A DNA stretch of 58,736 nucleotides from positions 1 to 58,736 of the IMG/VR virus record IMGVR_UViG_3300023243_000165. One strand, 5' to 3'. Under the pieces are notes generated by a model. The model worked only from the letters and a program-made list of their open reading frames with translations. It ran no database searches and had not been told where the DNA came from. A program made the translations under genes and the position numbers. Position 1 is the stretch's first letter. Each line of letters starts with the position of its first letter. Source of the stretch: a virus. This document shows positions 35,048 through 42,764 of this stretch, piece after piece.

Positions 35048-35170
35048 GCGATTATTTACTTTTATTTAAAAAAAGATTTAAGCTTATTTGAGTTGATATA
35101 GAGAAAGGTTAATCACTCATTACTAACACACATATAAAAAGATTAAGTTGTCCAAATTCCAACCGAGTTT

Positions 35171-35245
35171 TGTACTGGCGACTGGCACTGGTGCCGTAGG
35201 TTTAGTTTAAGTTAAGCACACGACGGTGTGGGCGTGGGCGTGGGG
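35171..35245. repeat. GC-rich degenerate repeat, copy 1
   Basis: Unit with CTGGTGCC (35188-35195), TTTAGTTTAA (35201-35210) and GTGGGCGTGGGCGTGGGG (35228-35245), in this order and spacing also found near 36064-36123 and 37418-37481. Far richer in GC than the surrounding genes. Confidence 0.65.
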
Positions 35246-35265
35246 CGAGGGTGTACACCCTCGCC
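35244..35265. other. 22-bp perfect palindrome
   Basis: GGCGAGGGTGT followed by its exact reverse complement, centre at 35254/35255, followed by TTTAAA on the plus side. As RNA it folds into a short-loop GC-rich hairpin on either strand. It could be a terminator, a DNA cruciform or a protein site; it abuts the structured element at 35266. Confidence 0.75.
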
Positions 35266-35337
35266 TTTAAACAGTCGTTATCTAGTGTTTAAACTCACTA
35301 GCCCCAACGGGTACGGAATCCGATTGAACTGTTTAAA
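35266..35337. ncRNA. Candidate 72-nt closed multi-stem RNA
   Basis: A 10-bp perfect outer stem (35266-35275 TTTAAACAGT with 35328-35337) closes a loop holding a 6-bp stem CTAGTG/CACTAG (35282-35287 with 35296-35301) and short stems CCC/GGG and CGG/CCG after it. The overall shape is a small multi-branch junction. It lacks the T-loop and anticodon pattern of tRNA. Immediately downstream of the 167-residue gene. Confidence 0.45.
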
Positions 35338-35347
35338 CCGTACTAAC

Positions 35348-35851
35348 TTAACAGATACGGAAACCGTTTGATTCTTCACAGAATCTTATAAACTCCTCAA
35401 CATTACCCATTGTAAATGGATAGCTTGAGCCATAAGAATATTTAGATTGTATCCAATCCCAAGTATCGTGGTCATCTTTAGGATAATCACATGGTGCTAT
35501 GTTGGTCTTGCCTACCTCTTGCTCAACTTTCTTACGCAACATCTCGTGACACAACTCAACGTGCTTGTTGTTTGCCTCGCTGACTTTCATCTCTCCCTCA
35601 ACCTCATGTATTACTTTTGATACCGTGCCGTCTTTGATAAGTGCCTTTAATTGCTTTGCGACTTGCATAGCTTTTTCTTCACTAACCTCATGCCCACTAT
35701 TAGTCTGCCAATGCTCTCTATCTTGTTCATCAATGACACCCGTTTTTTCTACAACGAAGTCTGCCAATCTTCTCCACCACCAAACATTGTTTCTAAAGTA
35801 TTCGCCCTTGTCTGTTTTGTGATTACCTAATGAGTATAAATCAAATCCCAT
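35348..35851 (-). CDS. Conserved phage protein, YFRNNVWWWR family (167 aa)
   Basis: Begins MGFDLYSLGNHKTDKGEYFR then NNVWWWRRLADFVVEK, a striking aromatic block shared by a family scattered in phages and bacteria; helical acidic middle (HEVSEEKAMQVAKQLKALI) and a C-terminal WDWIQSKYSYGSSYPF with EEFIRFCEES. Function not established. A ribosome site AAGGAG and an AT-rich TATGAT element lie upstream. Confidence 0.7.
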   Translation of the reverse strand: MGFDLYSLGNHKTDKGEYFRNNVWWWRRLADFVVEKTGVIDEQDREHWQTNSGHEVSEEKAMQVAKQLKALIKDGTVSKVIHEVEGEMKVSEANNKHVELCHEMLRKKVEQEVGKTNIAPCDYPKDDHDTWDWIQSKYSYGSSYPFTMGNVEEFIRFCEESNGFRIC

Positions 35852-36233
35852 TTTGTTTTCTCCTTTGTTAAGTTAATTTCTTCTTTCTTATCATATCCCA
35901 CCAACAATGCAAATGTTTTTTTTTCTGACCTTTTCCAGCTCGTCCTGAAGCACTGGTGCCTGGTGCCCAGCTCCTTATGTTCATGTGTACCATTAGCAAC
36001 GTCGACGGTAGTGGGCGTGGGGGTAGAGCTTCCCGATCCAGCAACCATTTCCCAGCTGGCCAGCTGGTGCCGTTTACTAGTTTAAGGACCTCTTCCAGCA
36101 ACGTCGACTGCGTGGGCGTGGGCTCAGGTAATCCCTGTGCATCCGCGGACCACGGCCGTCAGTAAAAGGATGTAGATCCATCCAGCCGCTCTAGGATAGA
36201 AGACTAGTGGTACAACAAGAACAAGCAACCATG
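35852..36233. repeat. GC-rich repeat region, copies 2 and 3, no gene seen
   Basis: 382 bases that do not look like this phage's coding DNA. Repeated elements are CTGGTGCC at 35953-35967 and 36064-36071, AACGTCGAC at two places (35999 and 36101 vicinity), GTGGGCGTGG cores at 36011-36023 and 36111-36123, and a 16-bp palindrome CCAGCTGGCCAGCTGG at 36052-36067. Reading frames crossing it are low-complexity and unsupported. Confidence 0.65.
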
Positions 36234-36554
36234 TCAGGCTGCCTCCAGCTCAGCCAGTAACTGCTGGGCGCAAACCTCTACAGCGAACCAAACCAAGTCG
36301 TTCTTCAGTGTGGTAAGGGAGTGTGGGTCTTTGCAAATGTTATACAACATCAACCCATTCAGGATCCCAGCAGCGTCAGCTGCATCACTGAGCTCCTGCC
36401 ATACCTCCTGTTCATGAGCATCGTAGAAGGCGGCGGTCTCGTTGTAGTATGTGAGACCTGGCACTCCGCCACTACAGCCGTGCTTCGCGATGTCAGAGAT
36501 CAAGAAGGATTCGTCCTTCTCTCCTTGTGCCAACCAATCTTTTATACTACTCAT
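36234..36554 (-). CDS. Conserved phage protein, KHGCSGGV type (106 aa)
   Basis: Alpha-helical protein with SSIKDWLAQGEKDESFLISD, AKHGCSGGVPGLTYYNETAA and a final VWFAVEVCAQQLLAELE. The DIAKHGCSGGVxGLxYYxET block belongs to a family (DUF7222-like) in many phages and plasmids; no known activity. Starts within the preceding gene (overlap eight bases). Confidence 0.7.
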   Translation of the reverse strand: MSSIKDWLAQGEKDESFLISDIAKHGCSGGVPGLTYYNETAAFYDAHEQEVWQELSDAADAAGILNGLMLYNICKDPHSLTTLKNDLVWFAVEVCAQQLLAELEAA

Positions 36555-36741
36555 CTACCACCTCCGACTCTTTCCATGTGTTACCACTAGCAATGCATGC
36601 GGTGCCTTTAGCCCCTGTTAGGGCGTAGACTTTGCCTGTCTCAGGTTTGTCTGCGTCTGTAGGCTTTGAGTCATCTTTGATATACTCAGTCCCATAGTAA
36701 TCATTCATTTGCTGTATTATATTTTTTTTTATTTTCCCCAT
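36547..36741 (-). CDS. Small protein (64 aa)
   Basis: MGKIKKNIIQQMNDYYGTEY start, acidic KDDSKPTDADKPETGK and a Cys-containing ALTGAKGTACIASGNTW. Overlaps both neighbours by 8-13 bases. Unrecognised; accessory gene of the GC-repeat island. Confidence 0.5.
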   Translation of the reverse strand: MGKIKKNIIQQMNDYYGTEYIKDDSKPTDADKPETGKVYALTGAKGTACIASGNTWKESEVVDE

Positions 36742-37070
36742 GTGATGCCCTCCTCGTCGGTCTTGAATTTAACTTTGTCTCTTAGCTTTAACTGCGAAAG
36801 TATCTTAGGTACGTTATCCAAGGTGCCAACACCCTTGAGTCTAGATCCTTTGGTAATCCTTACCCACATCTTTTCCGATTGACCACGCTTCTTAAACCAC
36901 ACGTAGACGTAGTCTTGCATGTTCCTCTGCCCCTCAAGAGCTTTGATTCGAAAGTATGTTTCCTTGCCATGCTCTGCACATGTGTAGACTACATTACCTT
37001 TGGCTTCTTCAGAGTCCAATGGATTTTTCCAAATAAAGTTATCTGTTATATTTTTTTTGATATTTACCAT
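36729..37070 (-). CDS. Hypothetical beta/alpha protein (113 aa)
   Basis: Start at ATG 37070, preceded by GGGGGTGATC and coupled to the stop of a 27-residue membrane peptide; a TTG start at 37106 is less likely. Contains NVVYTCAEHGKETYFRIKAL, DYVYVWFKKRGQSEKMWVRI and a terminal KVKFKTDEEGITWGK. Beta-rich, perhaps nucleic-acid binding (YFRIKALEG, KKRGQ). Unrecognised. Confidence 0.6.
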   Translation of the reverse strand: MVNIKKNITDNFIWKNPLDSEEAKGNVVYTCAEHGKETYFRIKALEGQRNMQDYVYVWFKKRGQSEKMWVRITKGSRLKGVGTLDNVPKILSQLKLRDKVKFKTDEEGITWGK

Positions 37071-37147
37071 ATGATCACCCCCATGTAGGTAAGCAATCCT
37101 AGCCAAGCAATTGCAAAAAGCAATTCTGGAAGTATTGTGTTTGTCAT
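37064..37147 (-). CDS. Membrane micro-protein (27 aa)
   Basis: ATG 37147 with AAGGAG seven bases upstream, TAA 37064 overlapping the next ATG. MTNTILPELLFAIAWLGLLT then YMGVIIW is a single membrane helix. It is the first gene after the promoter at 37175-37202. Perhaps a membrane-active early peptide; inference from sequence only. Confidence 0.65.
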   Translation of the reverse strand: MTNTILPELLFAIAWLGLLTYMGVIIW

Positions 37148-37589
37148 TTTCATTCTCCTTTGGTTATACATTATAGATAAGACATGATGGGATAAATGTC
37201 AAGAGAACTTTTCATCTTTTTTTACAGCAGGAAAGCAAAAGCATCAGGTTCCGAGCTGGCACGCCAGTCCCCTTCAGTTCTATGGAATCCCGACCAAATT
37301 AGTCAGGTATTGGTAGTGGGGGTGTGGGTCGAGAAAGGAAAATGAATTAACCAATGCCCACACCTTGAAGAAATCATACCACATTTCCAGCATCTCAGCA
37401 CGCCAGTCTGCCTGGCCAGCACCAGTGTCTTTTAGTTTAAAGGATAGTTGCAGATGTGGGAGTAGGCGTGGGCGTGGGATCAGGGATTTTCTCTTCCCAG
37501 CTGGTGCCGTCAGAGCTCTGGCGCCAGGGACGTTGGAGCTTAGGTCTATTCGTAGCGTGGGGGTGGGATCTCGGTGCGTGGGCGTGGGA
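37148..37589. repeat. GC-rich repeat region, copies 4 to 6, with promoter
   Basis: 442 bases without a gene. After the promoter (37175-37202) come GC-rich units: GTAGTGGGGGTGTGGGTC (37313-37330), CACGCCAGTC twice (near 37260 and 37399), TTTAGTTTAA (37431-37440), GTAGGCGTGGGCGTGGGATC (37462-37481), CTGGTGCC (37501-37508), GCGTGGGGGTGGGATC (37555-37570) and GCGTGGGCGTGGGATC (37576-37591). The last unit runs into the 3' end of the nuclease gene. Confidence 0.65.
37175..37202 (-). promoter_or_regulatory. Sigma70-like promoter with internal GGGATAA element
   Basis: Minus strand: consensus -35 TTGACA (37197-37202), 16-base spacer, -10 TTATCT (37175-37180) overlapping a perfect TATAAT (37170-37175). 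The spacer carries ATCCCATC, the inverse of the GATGGGATAA after two other promoters. It drives the 27-residue peptide and the three genes after it. Confidence 0.65.
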
Positions 37590-37979
37590 TCACGCTTCAG
37601 GATGGCCAGCTCCCAGCACCAGGGACGCTGCGATGGTGATCAAAGTTTTAAGATCCGTGTGGCGGGCGAGTGGGACGGCGGTGCGGGACTCACGATCCAC
37701 GGCCAGAAGTACATAGGGCGCCTTCACGAGGGGTCTATTCAAGATAAATACTTTACCACCTGCTTTCTGATACTTAATATGCCAATTGATTTGGTACTTT
37801 GATAAGCCTTCGTTCTTGCTGGTGTTGGCTTTGAGTTCAATCCAAAAAACTTGACTGTTTACGACACAGTGGACATCGGGAATACCATTAATTGTATTAG
37901 ATTCTATGCGAGTAAAATGCCAAGTGCTGTCTAAATTTTTAAGCTGTTGCCAAATTCTAGATTCTTTATTTTGTGCCAT
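37590..37979 (-). CDS. VRR-NUC nuclease (129 aa)
   Basis: PD-(D/E)xK nuclease of the VRR-NUC type. Active-site layout: RIESNTINGIPDVHCV (~22-38, catalytic E and D), QVFWIELKANTS (~43-54, ExK), then LSKYQINWHIKYQKAGG (~59-75). Such proteins cut branched DNA (Holliday-like) or nick during replication and packaging. The last ~30 residues (after AVDRESR) are encoded by the GC-rich repeat region and differ from the family in length, so the natural C-terminus may have been replaced. Confidence 0.85.
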   Translation of the reverse strand: MAQNKESRIWQQLKNLDSTWHFTRIESNTINGIPDVHCVVNSQVFWIELKANTSKNEGLSKYQINWHIKYQKAGGKVFILNRPLVKAPYVLLAVDRESRTAVPLARHTDLKTLITIAASLVLGAGHPEA

Positions 37980-38617: not shown

Positions 38618-39250
38618 TTACTCTTTACTAATTTCAATTGGCGTAACGTCAATGATATTTTTAGCTTCTCCGATTTTTGATTCAAGCTCCTCAAGTCTTT
38701 TCTCCAGTTGTTCTCTGTTCATGCTCTCTAAACCAATATGGCTTATTTCCTTTCTATCAACAAAATGCCCTGCCATTTGATCTCTACGATACTGAGCAGT
38801 TATCGCTGCTGTCATCTGGCCTTTTTTCTCTGAGGTTTCCCTCATTCTAGCATAATGTTTATATGATAAAAGTTTGTCCTTTTCTTCTTTTTCTAGCTCT
38901 TGAGACATTCTTTTTTCAAAATATCTAACAACATGAGGATTCTTGTCTGGATTTAATAATCTACTTGCTTGATCAGTAGGGCCATATTTGTTAGTTGAGG
39001 TAAAACCAGCTTGTTTGGCAGCTTCAACTTTGCTAATCTCACCATAGTTAGAAACATACACATCAACAAATTTACGTTGTTTAGGTGTTAATTCAGATAT
39101 AGTCTTTAATTGATTAGCTTTTTTTGGCACTCGTTTACTATATACCCCTTCCTTAGAAAAATAAACTACTAGTAAAAAAAATGCACCCCCCTGCCTCAAG
39201 GAGTAATTTACTCCTAGCTTTTCTAGGAGTACTCCTAGCTTTTTTTTCAT
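38618..39250 (-). CDS. terS: Terminase small subunit (210 aa from ATG 39250)
   Basis: Terminase_2-type DNA-recognition subunit. SELTPKQRKFVDVYVSNYGE and KVEAAKQAGFTSTNKYG (~52-90) form the N-terminal helix-turn-helix; a helical oligomerisation region follows (RMSQELEKEEKDKLLS), and a C-terminal coil ends NREQLEKRLEELESKI. The first ~40 residues from ATG 39250 lie in the TCTAGGAGT repeat field and are unlike the family, so the true start may be a GTG at 39130; both are stated because no ribosome site decides. Confidence 0.75.
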   Translation of the reverse strand: MKKKLGVLLEKLGVNYSLRQGGAFFLLVVYFSKEGVYSKRVPKKANQLKTISELTPKQRKFVDVYVSNYGEISKVEAAKQAGFTSTNKYGPTDQASRLLNPDKNPHVVRYFEKRMSQELEKEEKDKLLSYKHYARMRETSEKKGQMTAAITAQYRRDQMAGHFVDRKEISHIGLESMNREQLEKRLEELESKIGEAKNIIDVTPIEISKE

Positions 39251-39431
39251 TTCTAGGAGTGAATTTATGCTTATATTTCAATAAGATAAGGTGTTTACTC
39301 CTAGATTCCTAGCTTTTTTCCTAAGTCCTAGAGAGTTTTTTATTTTTTTTTTTTCTAAGGAGAGGGTATACAGGGTAAATTTCTAGGAATCCACGTAATA
39401 CCTAGTGTTTTTTACTCCATTTCTAGGAGTA
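39199..39431. repeat. Iteron-like field of TCTAGGAGT repeats and palindromes
   Basis: About ten copies of (T)CTAGGAGT or its complement in 230 bases: palindromes GGAGTAATTTACTCC (39200-39214) and CTAGGAGTACTCCTAG (39223-39238, perfect 16 bp), TTTCTAGGAGT (39250-39260 and 39420-39430), ACTCCTAGA (39297-39305), TCCTAGA (39326-39332), TCTAAGGAG (39354-39362), TTTCTAGGAAT (39380-39390). A T-rich tract (39335-39354) lies inside. Reads as a replication origin or as a packaging (pac) site beside terS. Confidence 0.7.
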
Positions 39432-39435
39432 ACCC

Positions 39436-39535
39436 TGGCCCGTGAACCGTGAACCGTGGCTCTTGTCTCTTGTCTCTTTTATCTCGGCTCTCGTACCCTT
39501 ATCAATGACGAGGGTATATTTACTTTAGAACCATT
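39436..39535. repeat. Short tandem repeats CCGTGAA and TTGTCTC
   Basis: Three CCGTG units separated by AA (39440-39459) and two TTGTCTC units followed by TTTTATCTC (39463-39484), then a stem TACCCT/AGGGTA near 39497-39519. The CCGTGAACCGTG element is related to the CGTGGTTCGTG motif found at several other sites in this genome. No coding potential seen. Confidence 0.5.
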
Positions 39536-39589: not shown

Positions 39590-39659
39590 TTTTCATAACA
39601 ACTTAGTTCTTTGGTTAAGTTAGATAGGGGCACTTCGGGAGACTGAGCTGCCCCTTTTT
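39590..39659 (+). ncRNA. Candidate phage small RNA (~70 nt)
   Basis: Between the promoter above and a classic terminator: hairpin AACTTA/TAAGTT (39600-39605 with 39616-39621), then GGGGCA (39627-39632) pairing with TGCCCC (39649-39654) followed by TTTTT. No open frame of useful length. The 3' end stops right at the stop codon of the convergent minus-strand gene. Antisense to nothing recognisable, so a trans-acting or structural RNA is likely. Confidence 0.6.
39627..39659 (+). terminator. Rho-independent terminator
   Basis: Stem GGGGCA/TGCCCC with a 16-base loop containing CTTCGGG, directly followed by five T. The T-run exists only on the plus strand, giving the orientation. Confidence 0.75.
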
Positions 39660-40119
39660 ATATGCTGGTAACTAAATTCGATATAAACACAGTCGTACAA
39701 AGATCCACTGCATGTCTTAAATGAGTCAAATGCTTTCTATGATATTTTTTAGATTCTACTTCCTTACAATTACGATACTTAGTAAATTGTGTTGAATATT
39801 TTTTCCAAGCAAAATTTCGAGGAGAGAACTGAATATCCCCTTTCATAATAGCCATTTTATATCTTTCTTTTACATGGTCAGGTTCAAACCCTGAGTAATA
39901 GCATACCGTATAAAAATCAGTGACATTGGACATAAGCCACTCATGAGCATCACATTTATATATTGAAGGCTTTCGGTCCTGGGACTTTGATCCAGCGTCC
40001 TCTATGGCGTTAACAAGCACACCACGCCACATCTTTTCTTCGGGCTCAACATCAGTACTTAATAATTGAGTTGCGAAGCTAGTGCCCATAAGTTTTAATA
40101 AGGAAAGAGAGTAAGTCAC
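39658..40119 (-). CDS. Conserved phage protein, WRGVLVNAIED type (153 aa)
   Basis: Contains EEKMWRGVLVNAIEDAGSKS, AHEWLMSNVTDFYTVCYYSG and DHVKERYKMAIMKGDIQF in the first two thirds, a helical pattern repeated in phage early regions (WxxVLxxAIxDA...AxxWLxS...DFxxVCxxAG) that may be a DNA-binding helical domain. The basic end (NCKEVESKKYHRKHLTHLRH) supports nucleic-acid contact. Function not known. Confidence 0.65.
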   Translation of the reverse strand: MTYSLSLLKLMGTSFATQLLSTDVEPEEKMWRGVLVNAIEDAGSKSQDRKPSIYKCDAHEWLMSNVTDFYTVCYYSGFEPDHVKERYKMAIMKGDIQFSPRNFAWKKYSTQFTKYRNCKEVESKKYHRKHLTHLRHAVDLCTTVFISNLVTSI

Positions 40120-41011: not shown

Positions 41012-41163
41012 TACTTACGCTCCACACCCCTTAAAATATTCAAGGCTGCATCACAACTTTTTGATACACTTACCCTTAAATTATCTAAGCTATCTTGTGT
41101 TTCTTTTAAAGTTTTCTCAAGCTTTAAAATAGTTTCTTTAGCTTTTTTTATTTCTTCTTCCAT
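41011..41163 (-). CDS. Small coiled-coil protein (50 aa)
   Basis: ATG 41163, TAA 41011 (one base overlap with the next start). MEEEIKKAKETILKLEKTLK and ETQDSLDNLRVSVSKSCDAA form a heptad-type helix. Located after the RHH-type gene, which it overlaps by 26 bases; possibly an accessory to it. Confidence 0.6.
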   Translation of the reverse strand: MEEEIKKAKETILKLEKTLKETQDSLDNLRVSVSKSCDAALNILRGVERK

Positions 41164-42605: not shown

Positions 42606-42764
42606 TTAATTTGGTAAAGGACCTTGCACCGCTTTTTTTAAGGCACACTCTGCACAGAAATATTCTTTATTCTCTATAACTACTGCTTTAGATTTACAGA
42701 TCTTACATTCTCTGTAAATAGATGAGGAACTTTCTCTGTGTATTTTTTCATTTTTCCCTGCCAT
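42606..42764 (-). CDS. Small zinc-ribbon protein (52 aa)
   Basis: ATG 42764, TAA 42606, overlapping the end of the ParB-like gene by 85 bases in another frame. MAGKNEKIHRESSSSIYREC, then ICKSKAVVIENKEYFCAECA; the cysteines form ECKIC and FCAEC, a four-Cys ribbon 14 residues apart. A small nucleic-acid or protein-binding ribbon beside the polymerase. Confidence 0.7.
   Translation of the reverse strand: MAGKNEKIHRESSSSIYRECKICKSKAVVIENKEYFCAECALKKAVQGPLPN

Follow-up and report, generated by a model that had tools for sequence, protein, structure and literature searches.

A conserved repeat array beside the small terminase gene of HTVC023P-type pelagiphages is a candidate packaging recognition site

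In this study we demonstrated that the repeat field beside terS in a pelagiphage genome is real, non-random and conserved. We suggest that it is probably a pac-like packaging recognition site of an HTVC023P-type pelagiphage, with presumed TerS binding, DNA bending, cutting and a headful mode of packaging. The sequence-only reading had named an origin or a pac site without choosing between them; the packaging half of that proposal is now favoured and the origin half has lost ground, because TerS and the array were kept together in a recombinant whose replication genes had been replaced, because the element and the TerS recognition region tend to change together, because contig ends cluster at the array, and because GC skew does not turn there.

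The array and its genomic setting

The window, that is, the whole 58.7-kb stretch of DNA analysed, is a phage contig whose ends overlap by 126 bp, from base 10, and owing to this overlap the genome is probably complete and circularly assembled. By sequence its source is an HTVC023P-type pelagiphage (a phage of SAR11); the closest annotated relative was Pelagibacter phage HTVC023P, with HTVC027P and 023Pt_psg01 further off. A Pelagibacteraceae assembly (isolate AG-919-D18), which perhaps derives from an infected cell, encodes on contig CACMNP010000007.1 (L254) a relative, 88% identical, of the protein annotated as PurM in HTVC023P. Nearly all longer genes of the window are carried by the minus strand, with TerL at 32.7-34.1 kb and the replication genes (PolA, UvrD-like helicase, AEP primase, gp34- and gp33-like) at 43-50 kb. 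Between terL and terS, GC-rich stretches at 35150-37700 (GC 0.45-0.49 vs about 0.35) are crowded with recurring words (e.g., GTGGGCGTGGG and CAGCTGGTGCC), and different repeated words (CAAGCCACAAGC, GAGCGAGC) were seen at a similar place in HTVC027P and 023Pt_psg01.

The TerS protein matched Pfam Terminase_2 (E 1e-6, above the family cut-off) and a PHROG of terminase small subunits. Its AlphaFold model was of moderate quality (pLDDT 70), with three N-terminal helices at residues 17-28, 35-41 and 51-59. The PDB fold search with this model gave nothing significant (the NV1 small terminase ranked third, E 3.1), and there was no terminase among the matches of the PDB sequence search.

The array extends over 39198-39430, upstream of terS (Table 1). 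Exact copies of CTAGGAGT occurred six times in the whole genome, all of them at 39210-39430 (221 bp), compared with 1.3 expected genome-wide, and in 60 Markov-shuffled genomes no 8-mer exceeded four copies per 230 bp. The CTAGGA core was present in nine exact copies in both orientations at 39212-39428, in addition to a degenerate AAGGAGTAA at 39198, which agrees with the roughly ten direct and inverted copies in about 230 bases described from the sequence alone. The 16-bp palindrome reported at 39223-39238 (CTAGGAGTACTCCTAG) proved to be exact and unique in the window, and the repeat at 39200-39214 (GGAGTAATTTACTCC) is a 7+1+7 inverted repeat. The claim that the array runs into the first codons of terS did not hold: the terS starts of the relatives, several of them ATG, align with the GTG at 39133, so the array is intergenic and the ATG at 39250 represents a chance extension. 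A 28-nt inverted repeat, absent from the sequence-only reading, brackets the array, and similar arms are present in many relatives.

Table 1. Features of terS and the adjacent repeat array in the window.
Feature	Position	Strand	Basis
terS, small terminase subunit (171 aa) with N-terminal HTH, predicted to read the array	38618..39133	-	Pfam Terminase_2, PHROG, start alignment
Flanking inverted repeat, left arm, 28 nt, 86% complementary	39138..39165	.	Repeat search; arms in many relatives
Degenerate element AAGGAGTA, left half of GGAGTAATTTACTCC	39198..39205	+	Sequence, repeat search
Element CTAGGAGT, four-element side	39210..39217	-	Exact-word search
Element CTAGGAGT, four-element side, forms 16-bp palindrome with 39231..39238	39223..39230	+	Exact-word search
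Element CTAGGAGT, four-element side	39231..39238	-	Exact-word search
Element CTAGGAGT, four-element side	39253..39260	+	Exact-word search
Weak IHF-like site TTTCAATAAGATA, two mismatches, within AT-rich spacer	39276..39288	+	Consensus search
Element CTAGGAGT, first of the pair	39297..39304	-	Exact-word search
Element CTAGGAAT, second of the pair, 8 bp off	39305..39312	-	Core search
Additional CTAGGA core	39326..39331	-	Core search
Flanking inverted repeat, right arm	39346..39373	.	Repeat search; arms in many relatives
Distal inverted element CTAGGAAT	39383..39390	+	Repeat and core search
Distal inverted element CTAGGAGT	39423..39430	+	Exact-word search

Two further observations concern the vicinity of the array. 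Words like CGTGGTTCACGG and CCGTGAACCGTGG recur near it in many of these phages (window 39436-39465, L085 6000-6050, L222 15630-15680) and also in a noncoding gap near terS of the lake phage DSL-LC04. On the plus strand of the window at 39629-39660, where the surrounding genes lie on the opposite strand, a hairpin GGGGCA...TGCCCC is followed by TTTTT; it is possibly a terminator or a small RNA, and some relatives have other hairpins near the matching place.

Geometry and element words among relatives

The search with terS yielded 80 related contigs. At least two exact CTAGGA cores were found in all 67 distinct window/HTVC023P-type regions having at least 300 bp upstream of terS, the element word being TCTAGGAGTA in the window clade and ACTAGGAAA in the HTVC023P clade. 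In HTVC027P-type and psg01-type phages an array is situated at the corresponding place in most loci, with terS inverted, the automatic array calls having failed or been unreliable for some HTVC027P-type loci (e.g., L110, L120, L161, L168 and L171). The words there (TGTAACA, TGTAGCA, TGAGACA, TGAAGCA, AGTCACA, TGTCTCAC and TGTGCCA) are unrelated to that of the window. Since most copies within one array share the same word, the changes of the element appear to be concerted. No comparable array was detected in DSL-LC04 by eye or by k-mer scan.

The usual steps between elements in the HTVC027P-type array are 10, 10-11, 11, 43 and 8 bp, and those of the HTVC023P clade (e.g., L048) form their mirror image (8, 43, 11, 10 and 11 bp). 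The steps of the window itself are 8, 46, 20, 10 and 11 bp, and among the variants are an inverted fourth element and a spacer step of 39 or 53 bp. As judged by these steps, what is conserved is the geometry, namely a pair 8 bp apart, a step of about 43 bp and four elements at 10-11 bp, and not the sequence. The conservation of motif spacing, which the sequence-only reading had proposed as a check, was thereby borne out, array and spacing being kept in the window/HTVC023P-type relatives examined.

A spacer core similar to AATAYCAACACTTTA equals the exact IHF consensus in 26 of 46 HTVC027P-type and 1 of 41 window-type spacers, compared with 8 of 1740 shuffles, these counts coming from related sequences and thus not from independent events. 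The site of the window itself is weak, with two mismatches, and this speaks against the packaging reading. In two SAR11-family genomes that were scanned, three proteins of the HU/IHF family were present, with best matches to HU, IHF-alpha and IHF-beta that lay below the curated cut-offs.

Proteins associated with the array and alternative functions

The recombinant L073, a single metagenome contig, was informative when compared with L078. The TerS proteins of the two are 100% identical and their arrays nearly so, while identity amounts to only 27% for the primase, 40% for the helicase, 39% for the gp34-like protein and 60% for PolA. Identities of 86-96% in several intermediate genes make a simple assembly chimera less likely, though still conceivable. 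Compared as L222 (L073) and L223 (L078), the two otherwise close phages appear to have swapped a whole replication module. Among the window proteins tried, TerS was found in 7 of 7 comparison genomes and was retained in L073. The gp28 protein was also retained in L073, but was rejected as the array binder, being 95% identical across different elements.

In addition, the element type may be related to TerS itself. Among 42 distinct HTVC027P-type TerS proteins, residues 40-53 showed an excess of differences between loci with different elements (label-permutation p=0.017, a value that ignores phylogeny, with the TGAGACA genomes resembling one clade). When TerS was scanned in 14-residue windows, the signal peaked in those starting at 46-58 (residues 46-72). 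Consistent changes were K52T/S with TGAGACA, K47Q with TGTCTCA and Q43S with AGTCACA. At the same time, L167 has recognition-helix changes with its element unchanged, the TGAAGCA and TGTARCA types have the same TerS recognition helix, and the array geometry of L143 and L147 is unlike that of L117, although the first 62 TerS residues are common to all three.

The main rival explanation, which we regard as unlikely, is an iteron-type replication origin, at which a phage initiator would bind the elements, IHF would bend the AT-rich spacer and the DNA would open. Iteron origins such as lambda ori combine direct repeats with an AT-rich stretch, and so do oriL and oriR of SPP1 (PMC6316719). The array shares these features, has an IHF-like site that would likewise fit known origins, and borders the replication side of the genome. 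Moreover, in 17 long genomes the partial rank correlation with array-type distance was 0.48 for the helicase, 0.46 for the exonuclease and 0.40 for the primase, compared with 0.11 for TerS, which speaks for the replication module and against TerS as the array binder. TerS is the most conserved gene in this comparison, which depresses its signal, although this is not claimed to explain the gap to the other three proteins. Against the origin, and against the replication module as the array binder, stands L073, where the array is unlinked to the replication proteins: it remained unchanged after the replacement of PolA, helicase, primase and the gp34-like protein, and a search for a second array found none. 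Identical element classes also occur despite primases only 49% alike, and no initiator family was recognised among the 10 window proteins scanned. The shift of cumulative GC skew for which the sequence-only reading had proposed to look was not seen, the skew falling steadily through 39 kb; with almost every gene on the same strand, this test is weak.

An operator or promoter complex, e.g., for TerS autorepression or for a phage regulator, seems improbable to us. The array of the window does occupy the 5' gap of terS, and SPP1 offers a precedent, with a terminase that represses its own production and a pac site that overlaps the promoters of gene 1 (PMC6316719). However, the HTVC027P-type array mostly lies 350-500 bp 3' of terS, no sigma-70-like match was found inside the array, with matches nearby no more frequent than in shuffles, and six phased elements with a bend site would be elaborate for such a role.

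A centromere-like or nucleoid site bound by an RHH-like or ParB-like protein is highly improbable, even though a small RHH-like protein (tentative, no Pfam match) at 41138 and a ParB-like protein at 42680 are encoded nearby and parS of P1 consists of short boxes around an IHF site. The putative RHH contact strand KYKSLAVD, nearly invariant across element types, does not differ between TGAGACA genomes and most TGTARCA genomes, and the protein shows 92% identity across types; none of the other array-bearing genomes yielded the ParB-like protein. Just as little probability attaches to conserved repeats lacking one cognate protein (e.g., maintained by recombination) or to an RNA element: several of these phages do have many repeated words in the surrounding region, but fixed spacing, changing sequence and mixed orientation point to a DNA-bound protein assembly, and Rfam gave no match.

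Contig ends, the proposed packaging model and known systems

The ends of the assembled contigs were not evenly distributed. In the HTVC027P-type, 15 ends fell 250-750 bp 3' of terS, the position of the array, compared with roughly one end in each 250 bp farther than 1 kb away, and seven psg01-type ends fell within the same distance. Seven of the 27 upstream ends of window-type contigs lay at most 400 bp from terS, one of these contigs starting inside terS. Four psg01-type contigs (L190, L174, L184 and L197) end at nearly the same spot, within or just past the first array elements. The ends near the array were scattered, with no single fixed nucleotide, and their clustering could possibly reflect assembly breaks in a variable region. 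The window, L019, L042 and L053 have end overlaps of 77-126 bp and were opened at differing distances from terS. A lambda-type cos with fixed cohesive ends was rejected, as the opening point varies among contigs with overlapping termini; together with the pattern of contig ends, these variable opening points are more in keeping with headful packaging from a pac site than with cos.

According to the favoured packaging reading, several HTH domains of a TerS ring would bind the repeated 7-8-bp elements, and the 10-11-bp spacing would place four of them roughly on one face of the DNA helix. The AT-rich spacer of about 43 bp would bend, either via host IHF or HU or by its own sequence, and bring the element pair round to the same TerS assembly. 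This assembly would then position TerL for the first cut, with headful packaging to follow.

The proposed TerS-bound packaging-initiation site, which we consider the most likely function, resembles lambda cosB and SPP1 pac in logic and differs from both in layout (PMC4856287, PMC4669245, PMC4737164, PMC6316719). In lambda cosB (R3-I1-R2-R1) repeated sites for gpNu1, the TerS protein, adjoin the TerS gene with an IHF site between them, and lambda and phage 21 differ in their R sites and TerS recognition helix while keeping the basic cos structure (PMC4856287, PMC4669245). Similarly, the candidate TerS sites of the array lie beside terS and may be split by an IHF site. Unlike in lambda, with its three R sites, six elements of 7-8 bp are present, spaced 8 and 10-11 bp apart, and their word switches widely; no cosN or cosQ was identified, and the assemblies circularise at different points.

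In SPP1/SF6 pac (pacL-pacC-pacR), with gp1 as the small terminase, direct-repeat boxes near terS surround a central region, packaging is headful and a nucleosome-like wrapping has been proposed for TerS; the boxes are only moderately conserved (PMC4737164, PMC6316719, PMC4856287). The HTH domain of SF6 TerS, which has been studied closely, shows little sequence specificity on pac DNA (PMC4737164), and this was counted against the packaging reading of the array. The array likewise has repeats near terS on both sides of a central region; in contrast to SPP1/SF6, its elements and spacing are conserved and appear to be sequence-specific. The pac site of P1 contains repeated hexamers on either side of the cut and is Dam-sensitive. 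The array is similar to it in that copies of a short word cluster on both flanks of a central stretch, but word, spacing and genes differ.

Going further, we tentatively propose that the array might embody a packaging-specificity code, a reading that we hold to be possible though less than probable. A fixed scaffold of six elements (four at 10-11 bp, a bent spacer of about 43 bp and two at 8 bp) would be read by a TerS ring via several HTH domains at once. All copies of the word would change in concert, accompanied by substitutions close to the TerS recognition helix, and related phages would as a result be unable to package one another's DNA. The searched passages of the literature on HTVC023P-type phages contain no mention of a site of this sort. 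The pelagiphage group to which the window belongs has been reported as the most abundant known (PMC12753301), and DNA recognition by TerS has been described as an open question, wrapping and threading models being disputed (PMC9611059). If our reading is true, a conserved, helically phased array whose word switches in step with substitutions close to the recognition helix of TerS would allow the wrapping model to be tested directly, with short DNA and one protein.
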